Source: a virus
Strand: one strand, 5' to 3'
Length of the DNA: 20,794 nt
Virus record (IMG/VR): IMGVR_UViG_3300025128_000434
Location: 1 to 20,794 of that record
Both the position numbers and the translations under genes were made by a program. Positions 3,073 through 20,275 of this stretch are shown piece after piece; the stretch's first letter is position 1, and the number at the start of each line of letters is the position of its first letter. The notes under the pieces are model-generated. The model saw only the letters and a list, made by a program, of their open reading frames with translations, made no database searches and was not told the origin of the DNA.

Positions 3073-3558
3073 TTACACTGCCTCAAATAACCGACGTTCT
3101 GCAGCTCGTCGTCGTACAAGTCCGGAAAGGATACGACCAGCAGACCTGCGCCATTTCGGAAACTCCGCTCCCGCACCTTCCACATCGCCTCTGTTAAGTT
3201 TCATTCTCAACGAGGATTTTTGCAGGTTCCCGCTTCCGATATTATAGCAGAAAGACACTAGACTTGAGAACTGATTTTCGTTAAGGGGGTATTTGACAAG
3301 GCGGTTAACTGCCCCTTCAGAATGAAGTATTTCTTGTCGGAGTAGAAACTCGCCCTCGACCTTATCAATGTCAGGGTGAGTAGGGGTGATACGATTGCGA
3401 TCACGATCATAGGTGCTCCCGAAGCCAATAGTCCATCGAGCGCCGCAATGGTAGACAGACGGTGACCAACCTTCAAAGGACTTAATGATTCCCAAACCGG
3501 CCGCATTGATATGGCCGTCCCAAGAATTATTTCGTATCAGGATATCATGTAGACTCAT
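3073..3558 (-). CDS. Endolysin, phage lysozyme (muramidase, GH24 family)
   Basis: A 161-residue glycoside hydrolase family 24 lysozyme, which cleaves the beta-1,4 bond between N-acetylmuramic acid and N-acetylglucosamine in peptidoglycan. The catalytic Glu is E29 in IIKSFEGW. C38 stands where T4 lysozyme has D20, and T43 begins TIGFGS. The family's second hallmark follows (NENQFSSLVSFCYNIGSG, residues 93-110), then the C-terminal FPKWRRSAGRILSGLVRRR (133-151), the usual 'W..A.G....GLVRRR' ending. There is no signal peptide or N-terminal SAR segment, so release should need the holin encoded just upstream. The two genes overlap as ATGA (3558-3555), which suggests translational coupling. One oddity is that E29 to C38 has the normal eight-residue gap, but C38 to T43 has four residues instead of the usual five. 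Confidence 0.96.
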   Translation of the reverse strand: MSLHDILIRNNSWDGHINAAGLGIIKSFEGWSPSVYHCGARWTIGFGSTYDRDRNRITPTHPDIDKVEGEFLLRQEILHSEGAVNRLVKYPLNENQFSSLVSFCYNIGSGNLQKSSLRMKLNRGDVEGAGAEFPKWRRSAGRILSGLVRRRAAERRLFEAV

Positions 3559-4001
3559 GTCTGAGTTTTCCTAGCCATGGTCCTTGCGCCAAACCAAAAT
3601 GAGACGACGGCTGCCCAAACGGCCTGAAATTCATCGTTCCAAATCATGTTGTACTGTTCTGTCGTAATCCAGTCCATGTTTACGCAAACGGTTAGCGCAG
3701 CAAACTCCAAGAACAAAAGATAGGTAATACAAGGTCTTACAGAAGCAGCGAGGTTTCGGATAAAGGGACTGGCGCTTGCTTGTAGCTTAGAGCTATGCTG
3801 GATCAAAGCTTCACTCTCTCGAATATCTGCTTCAACGTGCATCGTCTGGAGTTTAATGTCACCAAGAGCTTTCTGCTGTTCCAACTGCTTATCCATTAGC
3901 TGCAGCTCATGGGCTTTATCGCTTTTATCTTGGAAATAATCCATGACTTTTGGGAGAAAACTGGTGCCAAACCCAAGGACACTACCTAATAACGAAAGCA
4001 T
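3555..4001 (-). CDS. Holin, probably of the gene-transfer-agent 3-TM holin family
   Basis: The 148-residue protein has a hydrophobic N-terminus (residues 1-19), a charged helical stretch (22-75, MDYFQDKSDKAHELQ onward), and two clear membrane segments at about 90-108 (PCITYLLFLEFAALTVCV) and 121-138 (FQAVWAAVVSFWFGAR). The SVRP-ITY and SFWFGAR signatures are those I associate with the 3-TM holin family named for gene transfer agent release (GTA_holin_3TM). The holin would form inner-membrane lesions that let the signal-less endolysin reach the wall. The endolysin start overlaps its stop as ATGA. The holin start itself overlaps the stop of an 18-codon hydrophobic ORF as TAATG, with GGAG ten bases upstream. 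Family membership is from memory of motifs; the gene position supports it strongly. Confidence 0.85.
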   Translation of the reverse strand: MLSLLGSVLGFGTSFLPKVMDYFQDKSDKAHELQLMDKQLEQQKALGDIKLQTMHVEADIRESEALIQHSSKLQASASPFIRNLAASVRPCITYLLFLEFAALTVCVNMDWITTEQYNMIWNDEFQAVWAAVVSFWFGARTMARKTQT

Positions 4002-4057
4002 TACAAAAGCACTCCTATAACTAAAACTTGCATAACCAAGATTGTAAGTCCAACCAT
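4001..4057 (-). CDS. Putative 18-residue hydrophobic micropeptide upstream of the holin
   Basis: An ATG at 4057-4055 opens a short frame encoding MVGLTILVMQVLVIGVLL. Its stop overlaps the holin start as TAATG (4003-3999). An AGGAG sequence (4069-4073) lies eleven bases before the ATG, and only two bases separate this ATG from the stop of the upstream 65-residue gene. Without it the region would be a 58-base gap in an otherwise gapless operon. The whole peptide is one uncharged hydrophobic stretch long enough to enter a membrane. It could be a real membrane micropeptide (holin partner or antiholin-like) or only a leader that delivers ribosomes to the holin start. No database support is available to me. 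Confidence 0.45.
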   Translation of the reverse strand: MVGLTILVMQVLVIGVLL

Positions 4058-4059
4058 AA

Positions 4060-4257
4060 TCAAATCTTCTCCTGCGGTTCGCTGAAATTGATAGTGGTAC
4101 ACATTGCTGCCCACTGTCTAAAAGCCCCTAACTCTTGGTGATAATTGTAGTATTCTTCCGTTATATCTTGCGGAGGGCACTTATCAACAGGCATAGAAGT
4201 TACGTCATAAGTGCCATCACTAGTAATTATAAATACGACTAAAACTAAAAGTTTCAC
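4060..4257 (-). CDS. Small hydrophobic-N-terminus protein with a cysteine pair (65 aa)
   Basis: The start is GTG (4257-4255), preceded by AGGA seven bases upstream. Residues 2-12 (KLLVLVVFIIT) form a short hydrophobic stretch; it may be a weak signal or membrane anchor or simply a beta strand. Two cysteines, C27 and C53, could form a disulphide if the protein is exported. It lacks a lipobox, so it is not an obvious outer-membrane spanin lipoprotein. The layout (short hydrophobic start, then Cys, about 21-26 residues, then Cys after a Trp) resembles the 73-residue protein encoded at 4841-4620. Position next to the holin suggests a lysis or membrane-related role. The function is unknown. Confidence 0.75.
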   Translation of the reverse strand: MKLLVLVVFIITSDGTYDVTSMPVDKCPPQDITEEYYNYHQELGAFRQWAAMCTTINFSEPQEKI

Positions 4258-4265
4258 GTTTTATC

Positions 4266-4616
4266 CTACTCTACTTTAGGGTGCTTGCCATTATGTTGCT
4301 TGTTTAGATGTGCCACTTGCGCCTGTAGTACTTCAATCTGCGCCTGCACTGTTGCCATCTCACGGTTACGATGCTCTAGAGCAGGTACCGAGTTTATCTC
4401 TTTGAGAACATCTATCTGAGAAGTAAACACTGCCCGCTGAGATTCAGCCTCGTCCAGCCGCTGATCAAAGGCAGACTTTGATTTCTCATACCGCTTGATA
4501 AAACTCCCTAGATCTTCCATGACTCGGGCAAGTTGGCTTTTGACTACGGCGTAGCCGCCAGCCACAGTGGCCAACATTATTGCAAGTTGCATCCCAAGTT
4601 TTGCATCTACTTCCAT
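4266..4616 (-). CDS. Single-pass membrane protein with long coiled coil (116 aa), spanin-like layout
   Basis: An N-terminal membrane segment (about residues 8-25, GMQLAIMLATVAGGYAVV) is followed by a long charged helix with heptad-like spacing from residue 28 to 107 (ARVMEDLGSFIKRYEKS through IEVLQAQVAHLNKQ). The ATG follows the upstream TAA after three bases (TAAGGTATG). An inner-membrane anchor plus periplasmic coiled coil is the architecture of Rz-type inner spanins, and the gene lies in the lysis neighbourhood, but I see no outer-membrane lipoprotein partner. The spanin role is therefore inference. Haemolysin XhlA-like or other membrane accessory roles remain possible. Confidence 0.85.
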   Translation of the reverse strand: MEVDAKLGMQLAIMLATVAGGYAVVKSQLARVMEDLGSFIKRYEKSKSAFDQRLDEAESQRAVFTSQIDVLKEINSVPALEHRNREMATVQAQIEVLQAQVAHLNKQHNGKHPKVE

Positions 4617-4842: not shown

Positions 4843-5265
4843 TTATTTCCCGGTAATCTGTAGGTGCCTCTGGGCATCTTTTAGTTTCTCAACAGCACTC
4901 CGCACTTCCATCATGTCCGTCTGCAAACGCGTTATGTTGACGCTATTGTTTGACCTGTCTTCGACCTTCGCCGTTAGCTTCTCCAGTTGGCCGCTGATAT
5001 GCTCAATTAACATAAAGGCTTCTTTTACTGCGGGCGATTGTGGGCGCTCGATACGAAAAGTTGTGTTCTTGTCAATGTCAAGTTTTAAGGACGCAACGCT
5101 TGTCTCCAGATCTTTCTTAACAAGTTGTTCTGAAGTCTCCAAACGGTTGAGCCGCTCTTGGATAATAAAATATGAATATACGCCCATACCGACCAACGCG
5201 ATCAGGCTGATGACAGTTTTCATCGGCATCTGCACGTTGGTCGTATCGCTAATCTTAGTAGTCAT
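4843..5265 (-). CDS. Single-pass membrane protein with coiled coil (140 aa)
   Basis: The chosen ATG at 5265-5263 overlaps the upstream stop as ATGA. It gives MTTKISDTTNVQMPMKTV, a start I associate with a small membrane protein common in marine phages. A longer frame would begin with TTG at 5307 and overlap the preceding gene by 46 bases, so I reject it. A membrane segment lies at about residues 17-35 (TVISLIALVGMGVYSYFII). Helical, charged sequence follows (36-65 and 82-135), with the FRIERP motif at 70-75. An N-in, coiled-coil-out layout fits a spanin-like or virion-membrane accessory protein. The exact function is unknown. Confidence 0.85.
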   Translation of the reverse strand: MTTKISDTTNVQMPMKTVISLIALVGMGVYSYFIIQERLNRLETSEQLVKKDLETSVASLKLDIDKNTTFRIERPQSPAVKEAFMLIEHISGQLEKLTAKVEDRSNNSVNITRLQTDMMEVRSAVEKLKDAQRHLQITGK

Positions 5266-5798
5266 CTGACTGCGGGTCCGTAAGTTGCCGCCCACCAAAG
5301 GAACCAAGCAATACCGCCAGCGACAGCCGCGACAGCTAATCCTTTAGCAACTTCAATCAGTATTGCCTTTCGTCGTTCTGCACGTTCTTCTGCATCTAAC
5401 TTGTCTTGCTTCTCACGCTCTTTTTTAGCAGCAACACGTTTGTCTTTTTCCTCAAGGATTAACTCCCAAGTAGATTTCTCACCCGGTTTAGACGGCCATT
5501 TACGATTTATTTCGTCCTTTAAATCTTCGATTTGTTGTTGAAGTTGTTTCTCTTCTATAACAGCAGCAGCGGCAGATGATACTGAAGTTTCTGAGCCATC
5601 ATCTTTGGCCCGTTTCTGAAGAATACTTTTATTTTTCTTGCCAATCGAGCTACCGGGGTCGTGACTTTTATTCTGCTCATGCTGTTCTTTGGCGTGAAAA
5701 ATCCCATCCAATCCATGTGCGATTTCTTGGACGCCTCTAGCAGATTTTACTAATGTCTTGGTAGCAGCTATCGCAGCAGCAATTGTAAGTGGGTCCAT
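5262..5798 (-). CDS. Coiled-coil protein with C-terminal membrane anchor (178 aa)
   Basis: The protein begins MDPLTIAAAIAATKTLVKSARG, a hydrophobic or amphipathic Ala-rich start that I have seen in small proteins of marine phages. The middle (residues 36-145) is very rich in Lys, Glu and Gln and should be largely helical (KQLQQQIEDLKDEINRKW, then EEKDKRVAAKKEREKQDK). A membrane segment lies at about 146-170 (ILIEVAKGLAVAAVAGGIAW), followed by a Trp-rich interface (FLWWAATYG). It starts three bases after the stop of the upstream adhesin. With the next three genes it forms a run of membrane-anchored helical or small exported proteins. It could help the virion or lysis apparatus meet the inner membrane; no specific role can be assigned. 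Confidence 0.85.
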   Translation of the reverse strand: MDPLTIAAAIAATKTLVKSARGVQEIAHGLDGIFHAKEQHEQNKSHDPGSSIGKKNKSILQKRAKDDGSETSVSSAAAAVIEEKQLQQQIEDLKDEINRKWPSKPGEKSTWELILEEKDKRVAAKKEREKQDKLDAEERAERRKAILIEVAKGLAVAAVAGGIAWFLWWAATYGPAVR

Positions 5799-16027: not shown

Positions 16028-16933
16028 CTACAGGGTGATGACGCCAGCGGTAATTGCTTCCGGCTTAACGACCTTGTAGCCGTAAACTTGAAGCCCGCGA
16101 ATGATGTCGCCAAAGGTGGTTTCAGACCGCAGAGTTTCCATATTGGTCATCTGCGAAGCAAAGGTAAGCGCTACCTTATGTCCGGAGAAGATCGTAAACT
16201 CTGAACCTGATTTTGGCAGATTGTGCGATACATAGAGAGTAAAGCGGTCAATCATACCGAGGCGACCATTACGAAGCGGCGTAGATCCGTCACCCGTAAT
16301 CGAAGCGTCCTTGAGGTCGGACTGTTTAATATAGCCCGCCATTTTAGCCGGGATCACCATGAAGCGATCCGACTCAGGCACGTTTTGCTCATCCAACACT
16401 GTACCGTGATTGATGATCTCAGCAATCGCACTAGTGGCATCAATTGCGTTGGGGGTACTTGCGACACCCAAATCAATATCGCCAGAGATGCGGCCCGCCG
16501 TCGTTCCCTTATTAGCTGCTGGAACATCGGTGGCAATATTACCGAGTACGTCGGTGTCGATCGTAATCTTCATCCGCTCGGAAGCATCTTTAGACCACTG
16601 ATCCATCATGGCGATGTCAGACTGAACCTGATCTACATCATCCTCGACGCAGGCAAAGTACTTACCTTTATCGATGAGGAGTTGCAGCTTCGGCTTGTCA
16701 GGGTTTTCAACGCTTAGCGTTTGGCCCTTAACATAGTCGTTGATCGTGATCTCAGGAGTGGTACGGATGTTAACCGTATCACCATGAGCCTTGATCTCGC
16801 CTTCATAGTCAGTGTTTGCGATCGCCGCCAAAACGGTGGCATCATAGAAGTTTTCGATGAGCTTCCCACTCCAGATCTCTGGAATAAAGTTGCCCGTATA
16901 GGCCGGATGGCCCGGGGAAGTTGCGTAAGCCAT
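16028..16933 (-). CDS. Major capsid protein (HK97-fold type, 301 aa)
   Basis: Residues 16-58 contain FIPEIWSGKLIENFYDATVL, then IANTDYEGEIKAHGDTVNIR. This opening is familiar from a podovirus/siphovirus coat protein family, in which 'G.IK..GDTV.IR' is the region before the P-loop/E-loop. DYVKGQTLSVENPDKPKLQL follows, and then YFACVEDDVDQVQSD. The C-terminal half has the coat-like TIFSGHKVALTFASQM and QVYGYKVVKPEAITAGVITL. The gene sits directly after the scaffold gene and before a small beta protein, and has an AAGGGA ribosome-binding site. There is no N-terminal delta domain or protease gene, so a separate scaffold (16953-17954) is expected to guide assembly. Confidence 0.92.
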   Translation of the reverse strand: MAYATSPGHPAYTGNFIPEIWSGKLIENFYDATVLAAIANTDYEGEIKAHGDTVNIRTTPEITINDYVKGQTLSVENPDKPKLQLLIDKGKYFACVEDDVDQVQSDIAMMDQWSKDASERMKITIDTDVLGNIATDVPAANKGTTAGRISGDIDLGVASTPNAIDATSAIAEIINHGTVLDEQNVPESDRFMVIPAKMAGYIKQSDLKDASITGDGSTPLRNGRLGMIDRFTLYVSHNLPKSGSEFTIFSGHKVALTFASQMTNMETLRSETTFGDIIRGLQVYGYKVVKPEAITAGVITL

Positions 16934-16952
16934 GATTACATCCCTTCATTAA

Positions 16953-17954
16953 CTACGCGTTGACAATACGACCTTCTCGTTGTGCAACGAAAATGTCCTG
17001 TTCGATAGCATCCCGTTCAGCTTCCTTACCCTTAAACTTTCCAAATCGTACATCATCAAAGAACTTTGTAATGTCCTTAGTGGTGTAGACTTTTCCCTCA
17101 TTGCTAGTGGGAGCAGGACCACTGCGGCCTTTTCCCGGCGCAACTTGACGTTCAAGTTCCGAAGACTGTTTGGGACTCGTATTTTGAGCTGGCGCTGTAC
17201 TACCCGGCCAAGAAGTAAAGAATCCTGCAGCACGACGAGCATCCATATTACGCTGAGCGTCTTCAAGAAAAGCTTGCCGTGGCATACCAGACAGGGGGTC
17301 AACCTCTAATAACCAAGCCTGAAAGTCTTGGTTATCATTGATCGCACGCCAATTTGGTACTGCACTTGATAAATCTGACCAGAAAGTTTGCTCGGCTGTC
17401 TGAGTCTGTTGCTGTGCAAGATGCTCCACACGGGGAACAAGCGCACCTTGTAACTGCTGCACTTGCTGTGTGAGCGCATTTAGTTGCTGCTCGTGACTAC
17501 TAGAGACTTCCTGACTTACCTTCCGCATAATATCAATGGACTCTCCATACTCTTCAATCTCGTTGTCAGATAAAAGAGATGCAGGAGCTGGCGCTTCAAC
17601 AGGTTGCGTTGGAGCGGACTCCATAGTTGCAAGTAACTGCTGAAGTTGATCGACTCGTCCTGCAAGATCACGATTTTGTGCATGAACTTGCGTAACTTGA
17701 GAATCAAACATGCCTTGTAGAGTTTTGTATTTATGCTCAAAACTCTCTTCTGGGGGTTCTGAACCCTGCTCAGGGGGTTCGGAAATATTAGCAACTTCGG
17801 CCGCACTGTCGGAATCTACAGATGGTGCATGGCCCTCAACAGGCATCGCTTCAGCTTCACCGTCTACAGGCGACTCTTCGGACGAAGTGTTAAGGTTAGC
17901 ATACAACTGTTGAACTTCCTCAGTCTGCTTACGAACTTGCTCTGGTACTGCCAT
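16953..17954 (-). CDS. Capsid scaffolding protein (333 aa)
   Basis: The sequence is low in complexity, acidic and Gln-rich: residues 25-72 are disordered and acidic, 73-112 are helical (KYKTLQGMFDSQVTQVHAQN), and 150-190 form a Gln-rich coiled coil (LNALTQQVQQLQGALVPRVE). The C-terminal 45 residues (KVYTTKDITKFFDDVRFGKF, KGKEAERDAIEQDIFVAQRE) match the basic/amphipathic coat-binding tail of phage scaffolds. It occupies the usual scaffold slot directly upstream of the coat gene. GGAGCG precedes the ATG. The scaffold directs procapsid assembly and leaves or is degraded before DNA fills the head. Confidence 0.9.
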   Translation of the reverse strand: MAVPEQVRKQTEEVQQLYANLNTSSEESPVDGEAEAMPVEGHAPSVDSDSAAEVANISEPPEQGSEPPEESFEHKYKTLQGMFDSQVTQVHAQNRDLAGRVDQLQQLLATMESAPTQPVEAPAPASLLSDNEIEEYGESIDIMRKVSQEVSSSHEQQLNALTQQVQQLQGALVPRVEHLAQQQTQTAEQTFWSDLSSAVPNWRAINDNQDFQAWLLEVDPLSGMPRQAFLEDAQRNMDARRAAGFFTSWPGSTAPAQNTSPKQSSELERQVAPGKGRSGPAPTSNEGKVYTTKDITKFFDDVRFGKFKGKEAERDAIEQDIFVAQREGRIVNA

Positions 17955-18002
17955 AATACGCTCCTATCGGTATGCGTTGGTTAATGAAGTAGCTGCATAT
18001 TG

Positions 18003-18212
18003 CTATGCTACTGACTCAGGGGCTTTCTTTATGAGGGAGATAAGTTCCCCCAAAACCTGACAGCGCCCCTGTGCAACTGCCACGTTATTCGTAACCTGTG
18101 GTAACCTTTCTAACTCTAAAGTATGCCACGACTCAAGCCATTCGACTGCGACCGGCACATTTTGTGAGATATGACTAAACGCCTTAAGCGTACGCTCGTC
18201 AGCTTGAATCAT
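18003..18212 (-). CDS. Small head-module accessory protein between portal and scaffold (69 aa)
   Basis: The ATG overlaps the portal stop as ATGA (18212-18209), so translation is coupled. The protein is helical, with AVEWLESWHTLELERLP and NNVAVAQGRCQVLGELISLI as its two recognisable stretches; the 'AQGRCQVLGEL' part resembles a small protein often found just after the portal gene. There is no membrane segment. It may be a portal- or scaffold-binding helper. The function is not known. Confidence 0.82.
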   Translation of the reverse strand: MIQADERTLKAFSHISQNVPVAVEWLESWHTLELERLPQVTNNVAVAQGRCQVLGELISLIKKAPESVA

Positions 18213-20275
18213 ATAGCCGCTCCCGTATTTTGGTTAGCAACTAGATTCGTCCCGCCAGCGGGATTACCCGCTGGATCTAAGGCTTGAGGTTGTGCCCCTG
18301 CGCCGCTCTGGGAAGGCGGGCCGAGCGCAAGCTGAGCTTCCTGCTGTGCAGCACGAAACTCTAAGGAAGCTTTCTCTCGGGAAGGCACAACCTCATCTTC
18401 AGGCATCTGAAGACTCTTTGCAATTTCACGTAAGATAGCTGCGCGTCCATCTTTACCGATAATCTCCATATCAAATTCATTAGCAGTGGCCTGCAAGAAT
18501 TCAACACGGCGAGTATTAACCGTATCCTTAACAGCAAGATTGATCGCGCCCAACGGAATAATCTGCGCATCACCTTTTAGTTCTTCATCTGTATCGTACC
18601 GCATGTTGTAGACAAACTGACGGTGCACAATAAGTTTTATAATGTCTGCATCAATGTGCATAACAACTTGCCGAATAGATTTACCTGCTGACCCCATCAA
18701 CATTGACAGTCCAGATGCGGTACGACCTGCGCCCTGCACATTTAGATCACCGTAGATATACGAGGGTATCCCGGAATGATCATCAGCCAGCTTGGAAAAC
18801 TTTTCGTAGACTGCCATCAACTGCGCGGAATTATCATTCGGCTGATTAAACCGGACAGCCGGGGCAGACGAACCTAGCGGATCACTCAGAACCTGCCAAA
18901 TACGCCACGGATGAAGTTGTGTAATGTCCTCATTTGTTGGGATACGCTCAAGGTTAACCTCGACTTGAGGACCAGAAGCGATACCCATGTTATTGACCAA
19001 CGAACGCGCAGATGCGTTGCAAACGTTCTGCAAGTCCTCAATAATTTCTGGAATACCTTTACCCCAAAACGAACCGGGGTTTTTAATGAAAGAGGTAGCA
19101 GCATATGGCTTCTCCCCTAAGGGATCATAATTGAGAATAGCCTTAATTACGTAGCTACCGATCACCCATACATTAGCATCATACTCTTTGGTAGGATCGG
19201 TAACTTCGTCTTCATTTAACCCCCACTCAATAAGCATACGGCCACTAACTTTACCCCAAAACTCGAGCGCGTCAAATATTTCTGTGGGGCGGTTCTCCGT
19301 GCTGTGCTTACTTTCTAGATCATCCTGCTCTTGTGCAGAGAAAGGCGTAATCCAACTCTGACCATTACCATACTCTAGGACTGCACGAATAGCCTCATCG
19401 TCGTATCCGGGCACTCCAATTAAGTCAGCAAGGTCCATCCTAGTGAGGGGGTGATGCTCGAATACATACCCATCATCGATGGATGAGATTCCCGGCTCCG
19501 GATAAAACTTAAAGGGGTCAACACGCTCATACTCTGGTGCAAGCTCCTCAGTAGTCACTGCAACAGTACTACCATCAGCATCGACATCCCAACCAAGTTT
19601 ACGCTGACGGCGTATAACTGGACCCTTAATTATTGCACATGGAAACGTTACAAGGTCAGTAATAAACTCATTGAACGCAGACGCATAACCACCTTCGGCA
19701 AACTGATCCTCAATCTTACGCTTCATTTTATCGGCACGATTCTGCGCATCCTTTAGCATCTCGAAGCGCATATCCTGAGCAATAACCTCACGGATCTCAT
19801 CAACCTCAACCGGGGAAGGTGCCTGCCCGACCGTCTGAATAAACTCAAGGACACGCTCACCTAAGATTTCAGTTATAACTTGATCTCGCGCATCAGGTAG
19901 GGTGGGGAGCGGTGTAGGCTTTATATTCCAAGGGGGAGACCCCGTATCCATCAGAATATCACGGAGCCAACTCTCAGCAGCACGACACTTAACTTCCGTA
20001 AGCATCATGTAAATCTCGGACCCGCCTTGTGCTCGAATCCCAGAGAGTTTAGCGGCTTCATACTCACCACGGCGTTGCCGTAAAGCTCGAAGCATATTTG
20101 TTTCAATAGGATCCTTAGCTCTCTTCGCGGCCTCAAACGCATGGCGAAGATACGCCGATAGACCAAGGATAAGCGGTTCGTTCTGCCGCTCCTCCATAGC
20201 CCGCCGCGCATCGTCACGCTCTTGCTCGACTAAAGACGCGTTGTCAACAACGCGAAGAAAGTTAAGTCCTGCCAT
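18209..20275 (-). CDS. Portal protein (688 aa)
   Basis: The portal is the dodecameric ring at one capsid vertex through which DNA is packed by the terminase and later ejected. Residues 69-110 (RGEYEAAKLSGIRAQGGSEI, then YMMLTEVKCRAAESWLRDIL) form a signature I recognise from portals of this type of podovirus. Further conserved-looking parts are NEFITDLVTFPCAIIKGPVI and DPFKFYPEPGISSIDDGYVF, and the helical core RTASGLSMLMGSAGKSIRQV followed by HIDADIIKLIVHRQFVYNMR. The Gln/Gly/Pro-rich end (AQPQALDPAGNPAGGTNLVA) is probably disordered. Length fits large podovirus portals. The start lies one base after the stop of the 47-residue gene. Confidence 0.92.
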   Translation of the reverse strand: MAGLNFLRVVDNASLVEQERDDARRAMEERQNEPLILGLSAYLRHAFEAAKRAKDPIETNMLRALRQRRGEYEAAKLSGIRAQGGSEIYMMLTEVKCRAAESWLRDILMDTGSPPWNIKPTPLPTLPDARDQVITEILGERVLEFIQTVGQAPSPVEVDEIREVIAQDMRFEMLKDAQNRADKMKRKIEDQFAEGGYASAFNEFITDLVTFPCAIIKGPVIRRQRKLGWDVDADGSTVAVTTEELAPEYERVDPFKFYPEPGISSIDDGYVFEHHPLTRMDLADLIGVPGYDDEAIRAVLEYGNGQSWITPFSAQEQDDLESKHSTENRPTEIFDALEFWGKVSGRMLIEWGLNEDEVTDPTKEYDANVWVIGSYVIKAILNYDPLGEKPYAATSFIKNPGSFWGKGIPEIIEDLQNVCNASARSLVNNMGIASGPQVEVNLERIPTNEDITQLHPWRIWQVLSDPLGSSAPAVRFNQPNDNSAQLMAVYEKFSKLADDHSGIPSYIYGDLNVQGAGRTASGLSMLMGSAGKSIRQVVMHIDADIIKLIVHRQFVYNMRYDTDEELKGDAQIIPLGAINLAVKDTVNTRRVEFLQATANEFDMEIIGKDGRAAILREIAKSLQMPEDEVVPSREKASLEFRAAQQEAQLALGPPSQSGAGAQPQALDPAGNPAGGTNLVANQNTGAAI

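Follow-up and report, generated by a model that had tools for sequence, protein, structure and literature searches.

An 18-codon micro-ORF lies directly 5′ of the holin-like gene in IMG/VR virus record IMGVR_UViG_3300025128_000434, of which a stretch of 20,794 nucleotides was analysed (the window), and comparison with related loci indicates that it is almost certainly a genuine gene, translated and under selection. Its product is predicted to be an uncharged single-pass membrane micropeptide, and the full proposal, in which this peptide would act in the membrane step of lysis, stands at an even chance. The features of the region are as follows.

4001–4057, minus strand: micro-ORF of 18 codons, MVGLTILVMQVLVIGVLL and stop TAA, conserved here with a coding substitution pattern
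4069–4073, minus strand: Shine-Dalgarno (SD)-like AGGAG of the micro-ORF, 11 nt 5′ of its ATG, within the final codons of the 65-aa gene
4012–4016, minus strand: AGGAG internal to the micro-ORF, the SD-like site of the holin, 10 nt from the holin ATG (-6.8 kcal/mol)
3999–4003, minus strand: TAATG overlap, in which the micro-ORF stop TAA (4003–4001) and the holin ATG (4001–3999) have one base in common
4060–4257, minus strand: 65-aa ORF with a GTG start, directly upstream of the micro-ORF
3555–4001, minus strand: 148-aa holin-like protein, phrog_6637 (E 1e-28, a family of unknown function), related to GTA_holin_3TM
3073–3558, minus strand: phage lysozyme (endolysin), PF00959 (E 7.1e-36), phrog_7, its start overlapping the holin stop (ATGA)

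Translation of the complement of 4001–4057 gives MVGLTILVMQVLVIGVLL*, bearing out the 18-codon ORF with an upstream AGGAG and a TAATG overlap described in an earlier note on this DNA, which had correctly placed it in the gap before the holin but left the minus strand unstated. The gap between the 65-aa ORF and the holin start is 58 nt long and almost wholly filled by the micro-ORF, the ATG of which lies 2 bases past the TGA of the 65-aa ORF, with the 65-aa ORF, micro-ORF, holin-like and lysozyme genes forming four frames packed end to end. The anti-SD duplex energy at the micro-ORF SD is -7.4 kcal/mol in the window, with a median of -7.35 over the 18 versions described below, and a TAATG or TGATG stop/start overlap is kept in 18/18. 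The peptide had also been called hydrophobic and uncharged, in keeping with its zero charged residues and GRAVY of 2.66. All versions are likewise uncharged (GRAVY 2.24–2.76) with 16–20 consecutive mostly hydrophobic residues, as in a single-pass membrane peptide, position 10 (Q, T or S) being the one polar residue. Against a membrane span, 18 residues is short for a bilayer.

Through the holin, 80 IMG/VR loci were retrieved and the DNA 5′ of the holin start read irrespective of the peptide, with further cases coming from pattern scans of IMG/VR that all demanded an initial M[VA]GL and of which one also called for four T-centred codons, such that conservation within the group of loci in which an endolysin gene follows (the endolysin group) is partly ascertained. 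Many of the holin-retrieved loci carry M[VA]GL[TA] and a hydrophobic run, the end of the ORF overlapping the holin by one base. Altogether 18 distinct DNA versions were collected from IMG/VR (13 of 18 codons, three of 20 and two of 16), encoding peptides of 16–20 residues of the form M[VA]GL[TA]-hydrophobic...G[VI]L.

The earlier note had proposed comparing this position in related phages for a bias towards synonymous substitution, and such a bias was found. Across the 18-codon class (13 versions), variable columns at codon positions 1, 2 and 3 number 11, 1 and 17 of 17 each (permutation, <1e-5), while the nine versions found through the holin only, and so unselected on the peptide, gave 9, 1 and 14 of 17 (permutation, <1e-5). 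With the holin SD excluded by taking codons 2–13 alone, the same nine versions still gave a permutation value of 0.00015. Substitutions are thus concentrated at synonymous sites over several lineages, the pattern of a protein-coding gene, which supports the reading of the ORF as selected at the peptide level, most likely as a membrane micropeptide, and linked to lysis genes. MVGLT, Q10, I14, G15 and L17 are the same in every version of the 18-codon class, with most of their codons varying, and pN/pS for the micro-ORF is 0.34 over codons 2–18 and 0.07 over codons 2–5. The value of 0.34 lies above that of the holin in the same loci (~0.18), as expected if it is chiefly hydrophobicity that is maintained. 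Searches of isolated phages with the DNA or a 20-aa peptide query returned no homologue, PHROGs gave no match for two 20-aa versions, and three pattern matches in bacterial genomes included none related by peptide. Other matches of two looser scans were mostly larger or out-of-frame ORFs, and one locus (L131, MVGLAVLIVYIFIWGW, no SD) was set aside as chance.

That the micro-ORF might be a chance open frame between two genes was considered by randomising the window 100 times under a first-order Markov model and scoring the results for coupled (TAATG/TGATG) ORFs of 14–22 codons. Coupled short ORFs proved commonplace at ~6 per randomised window, such that the stop/start overlap is by itself uninformative, but none of those in the 100 randomisations reached a GRAVY of 2.2. 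Among related holins an SD-preceded hydrophobic micro-ORF was present in 10/83 upstream clusters, the expectation after randomising the upstream DNA being 0.06. Together with a substitution pattern that is that of coding DNA, conservation refutes a chance frame, which is hardly credible.

The holin label of the downstream gene comes from weak family matches and from its position by the lysozyme, and is reasonable but indirect. The window protein scores 14.9 against GTA_holin_3TM (PF11351), under the Pfam gathering score of 24.8, whereas a protein 61% identical to it (L090) reaches 25.2; with the lysozyme next door this makes the label reasonable. The fold model (mean pLDDT 61.8) consists of a long helix and two hydrophobic helices, and structure comparison with this model gave no significant match. 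GTA_holin_3TM/phrog_6637 is the downstream partner of the micro-ORF, from which it is separated by one gene in the endolysin group; the micro-ORF is a gene of its own, neither part of the holin nor an alternative start for it. A dual-start holin/antiholin arrangement of the lambda S type was also rejected, the micro-ORF lying in another frame and ending at the holin start.

A role as a leader controlling holin translation, which the earlier note had offered as an alternative, is not favoured by the data. No consensus base pairs were found around the downstream start in 13 sequences, and folding energies were ordinary (z-scores -0.02, 0.18, 1.50 and -0.01), and a leader or attenuator acting via RNA structure was rejected on these results. 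Holin SD strength is alike in loci that carry the micro-ORF (median -6.8) and in those that lack it (median -7.3; P 0.40), and the idea that the holin ribosome site is weaker where the micro-ORF is present was rejected on the same figures. The absence of conserved RNA structure and the ordinary holin SD thus disfavour a structured regulatory leader, and a leader specific to the holin is further disfavoured by four contigs in which the same peptide precedes an endolysin. As both ends of the peptide are conserved and its middle is freely hydrophobic, it would fit a membrane peptide better than a ribosome-arrest leader.

A simpler translational coupler, in which translating the micro-ORF delivers or meters ribosomes to the next lysis gene with the peptide a by-product, is in keeping with the one-base overlap in all 18 versions. 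In the endolysin group the SD GGAGTG has become GGCAT(T/C), leaving the downstream gene nearly without an SD (-1.5 kcal/mol) and probably dependent on coupling. In that partly ascertained group IG[VI]L[LF] is retained though the SD is gone, indicating that it is the peptide and not the SD that is conserved. The peptide is also conserved at codons that tolerate third-position change, including the N-terminal MVGLT distant from the overlap, and neither the normal holin SD nor the RNA structure, which is neither conserved nor unusually stable, points to a coupling device. As such, coupling alone does not explain the conservation of the peptide, and a coupler with a by-product peptide is unlikely.

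The genes on either side indicate that the peptide belongs to the lysis cassette and not to one holin. The upstream gene is one of four unrelated families, namely the 65-aa protein (for which Pfam and PHROGs searches gave no family match), a 126-aa lipoprotein, a 116-aa coiled-coil protein and a 154-aa protein. The gene 3′ of the micro-ORF is always lysis-related, being either a phrog_6637/3TM holin, 46–100% identical to that of the window, or, in four contigs (L126, L202, L206 and L209), an M15 peptidase endolysin (PF08291, E 3.6e-21 in L206). In L206 the endolysin is followed by a divergent phrog_6637 holin (E 3.7e-11), with an identical order in L126. The holin adjacency looked for in an antiholin is present, though in the endolysin group the endolysin gene stands between the two, but a strictly holin-only role, as first envisaged, is not supported.

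A membrane peptide serving some purpose other than lysis, such as host membrane takeover or superinfection exclusion, could have been placed here by the dense packing of late genes, and its upstream neighbours are indeed mostly small uncharacterised proteins. Set against this, a lysis gene is always immediately downstream across the four upstream families, and a scan for the 18-codon form that left the downstream gene unconstrained returned 18 contigs, all 18 with the micro-ORF immediately before a lysis gene. A non-lysis role is on this evidence unlikely.

The micro-ORF is absent from several close relatives (L003/L216, L006, L008 and L015), the holins of which are 79–95% identical to that of the window. 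Relatives with the ATG lost and the holin start kept had been named in advance as evidence against the micro-ORF; such loci exist, but it is the whole ORF that is gone from them and not the ATG alone, which argues for an accessory, dispensable gene and not a spurious one. In L006 an SD, AAGGAGA, stands immediately 5′ of the holin. No MxGL-type hydrophobic ORF was found elsewhere in the stretches of L006, L008 and L015 examined, and relocation was rejected on this basis. On a holin tree of 82 rows, presence and absence require six changes, at least four of them across well supported branches. At the sequence level the micro-ORF is a conserved, selected and module-like first gene of a swappable lysis cassette.

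For the lysis-acting membrane micropeptide, the most economical course that may be envisaged is the following. Ribosomes would translate the micro-ORF from its own SD, which lies over the stop of the preceding gene, and would then pass on to the next lysis gene by coupled translation, while the peptide would insert in the inner membrane. There its helix could make contacts, maybe via the conserved polar residue 10 (Q, T or S), and alter how the holin oligomerises or the threshold at which holes form, acting as an antiholin or a helper. In membrane peptides generally, contacts between helices can be driven by a polar residue within the helix.

Phage antiholins and accessory holins are likewise small membrane proteins whose genes lie among the lysis genes and which modulate the action of the holin, examples being RI of phage T4, which acts on holin T (PMC11413866), and LydB, LydC and LydD of phage P1 (PMC9025707). 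All of these are much longer than the micropeptide, for which such a role is proposed, and are not related to it in sequence as far as tested. A further precedent for unexpected small membrane helpers in lysis cassettes is the phage Mu releasin gp25 (DUF2730), a non-holin membrane protein needed in lysis, which has SAR endolysins as its target and a cytoplasmic domain tethered to the membrane (PMC9239132), whereas the micropeptide has no soluble domain. Catalogues of phage small proteins now hold more than 2 million small phage genes (review PMC11323111), and the micro-ORF is broadly of this kind, a conserved phage micro-gene that lacks annotation. No such peptide was described in the literature searched, which took in little of the subscription literature and none of the original catalogues of small phage genes.

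Standard gene finders pass over genes of this length, and a selected component of the lysis switch in an apparently common marine phage type would thus go unannotated. Should the peptide act on the holin, it would rank with the smallest known lysis regulators, and natural pairs of loci with and without it exist in which its action could be tested. By the major capsid protein, which is 53% identical to that of the Rhizobium phage RHph_TM phages, and the portal, which at 26–35% identity comes nearest to those of Rhizobium phages and HMO-2011-type marine podoviruses (capsid and portal both within 16028–20275, minus strand), no close isolated relative of the window phage was found. The lysis region of the window was not seen in the stretches of HMO-2011-type and Rhizobium phages examined.

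Some versions of the micro-ORF resemble lipoprotein signal peptides. In L216, which has a holin 95% identical to that of the window and no micro-ORF before it, a 119-aa lipoprotein beginning MAGLALLILTLLISAC... directly follows the 154-aa gene, while at the same junction after the 154-aa gene L026 carries MAGLAMLILTLLLGVL* and then immediately the holin start; the two agree in 11/16 residues and 27/48 bases. In L019 a 45-aa ORF, MAGLTMLIFSLLLGACRLEVPVD..., with the N-terminus MAGLTMLIFSLLLGAC..., occupies the holin-proximal place, and by ungapped profile comparison L216 and L019 have the best N-termini, micro-ORFs aside, among the loci not fetched by peptide. Compared with these lysis-region lipoproteins (the 119–126-aa family of L216 and L206, and the 45-aa protein of L019), the signal peptides MAGLALLILTLLISAC and MAGLTMLIFSLLLGAC of which resemble MVGLTMLLLTLLLGVL and MAGLAMLILTLLLGVL, the micro-ORF stops at the position of the lipobox cysteine and has no mature part. 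A cysteine, expected in a lipoprotein or o-spanin, is present in 0/18 versions.

The likenesses to L216 and L019 suggest a relationship between the micro-ORF and a lipoprotein signal peptide, whichever of the two came first, though a likeness of hydrophobic N-termini can also be convergence. Given the resemblance of the 16-residue versions to the signal peptide at the same junction, the micro-ORF may have arisen as a severed lipoprotein signal peptide, a possible case of a signal peptide become an independent gene. The shared L026/L216 junction and the holin-proximal N-terminus of L019 would also suit a recently severed, decaying and functionless remnant. Such a remnant is very improbable given purifying selection, an intact SD, the invariant residues and the complete lipoprotein gene that stands directly upstream of the micro-ORF in many contigs, and the N-termini may match by convergence. 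A broader reading, put forward tentatively, is of a new autonomous family of lysis micropeptides of 16–20 residues, derived from a severed signal peptide, mobile between holin-first and endolysin-first cassettes and timing lysis by helix-helix contacts; equally tentatively, such a family would be among the shortest known phage proteins.

Several other small genes were seen in the region. The 126-aa lipoprotein family (L206:5163–5543 and relatives; MARISVLTLAFFLAGCQTDQAVHP...) is often directly 5′ of the micro-ORF, the ribosome site of which is then formed by the lipoprotein's C-terminal codons (KKEI or KKGV). Upstream in the window, 4266–4616 and 4843–5269 (minus strand) encode two small proteins, each with a hydrophobic segment at the N-terminus and otherwise coiled-coil-like, which are candidates for an inner-membrane spanin or for releasin-like parts. 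Very weak Rz-like spanin matches (phrog_739, E 0.04–0.08) were obtained with the 154-aa protein and with the relative of the 116-aa protein in L206. In L040 and L052 an unrelated 24-aa hydrophobic ORF, MQIIFLVILLLFGIFFCIAAHGGL, overlaps the holin at a TAATG (one to two substitutions in L052), and in L274, before position 2061, a 17-aa hydrophobic ORF with an SD, MPLWLIIILAAAAVGGS, ends one base 5′ of the holin ATG. Micro-lipoproteins occupy the slot of the micro-ORF before the holin in L011 (28 aa), L022 (27), L271 (26) and L282 (27), with what would be a mature part of only ~11–13 residues and with a conserved tail (e.g., MRYIYILAVLVFLEGCKLRIPVDNLFGY and MRIISFLIIFILLQGCRLRIPVDMFGY).
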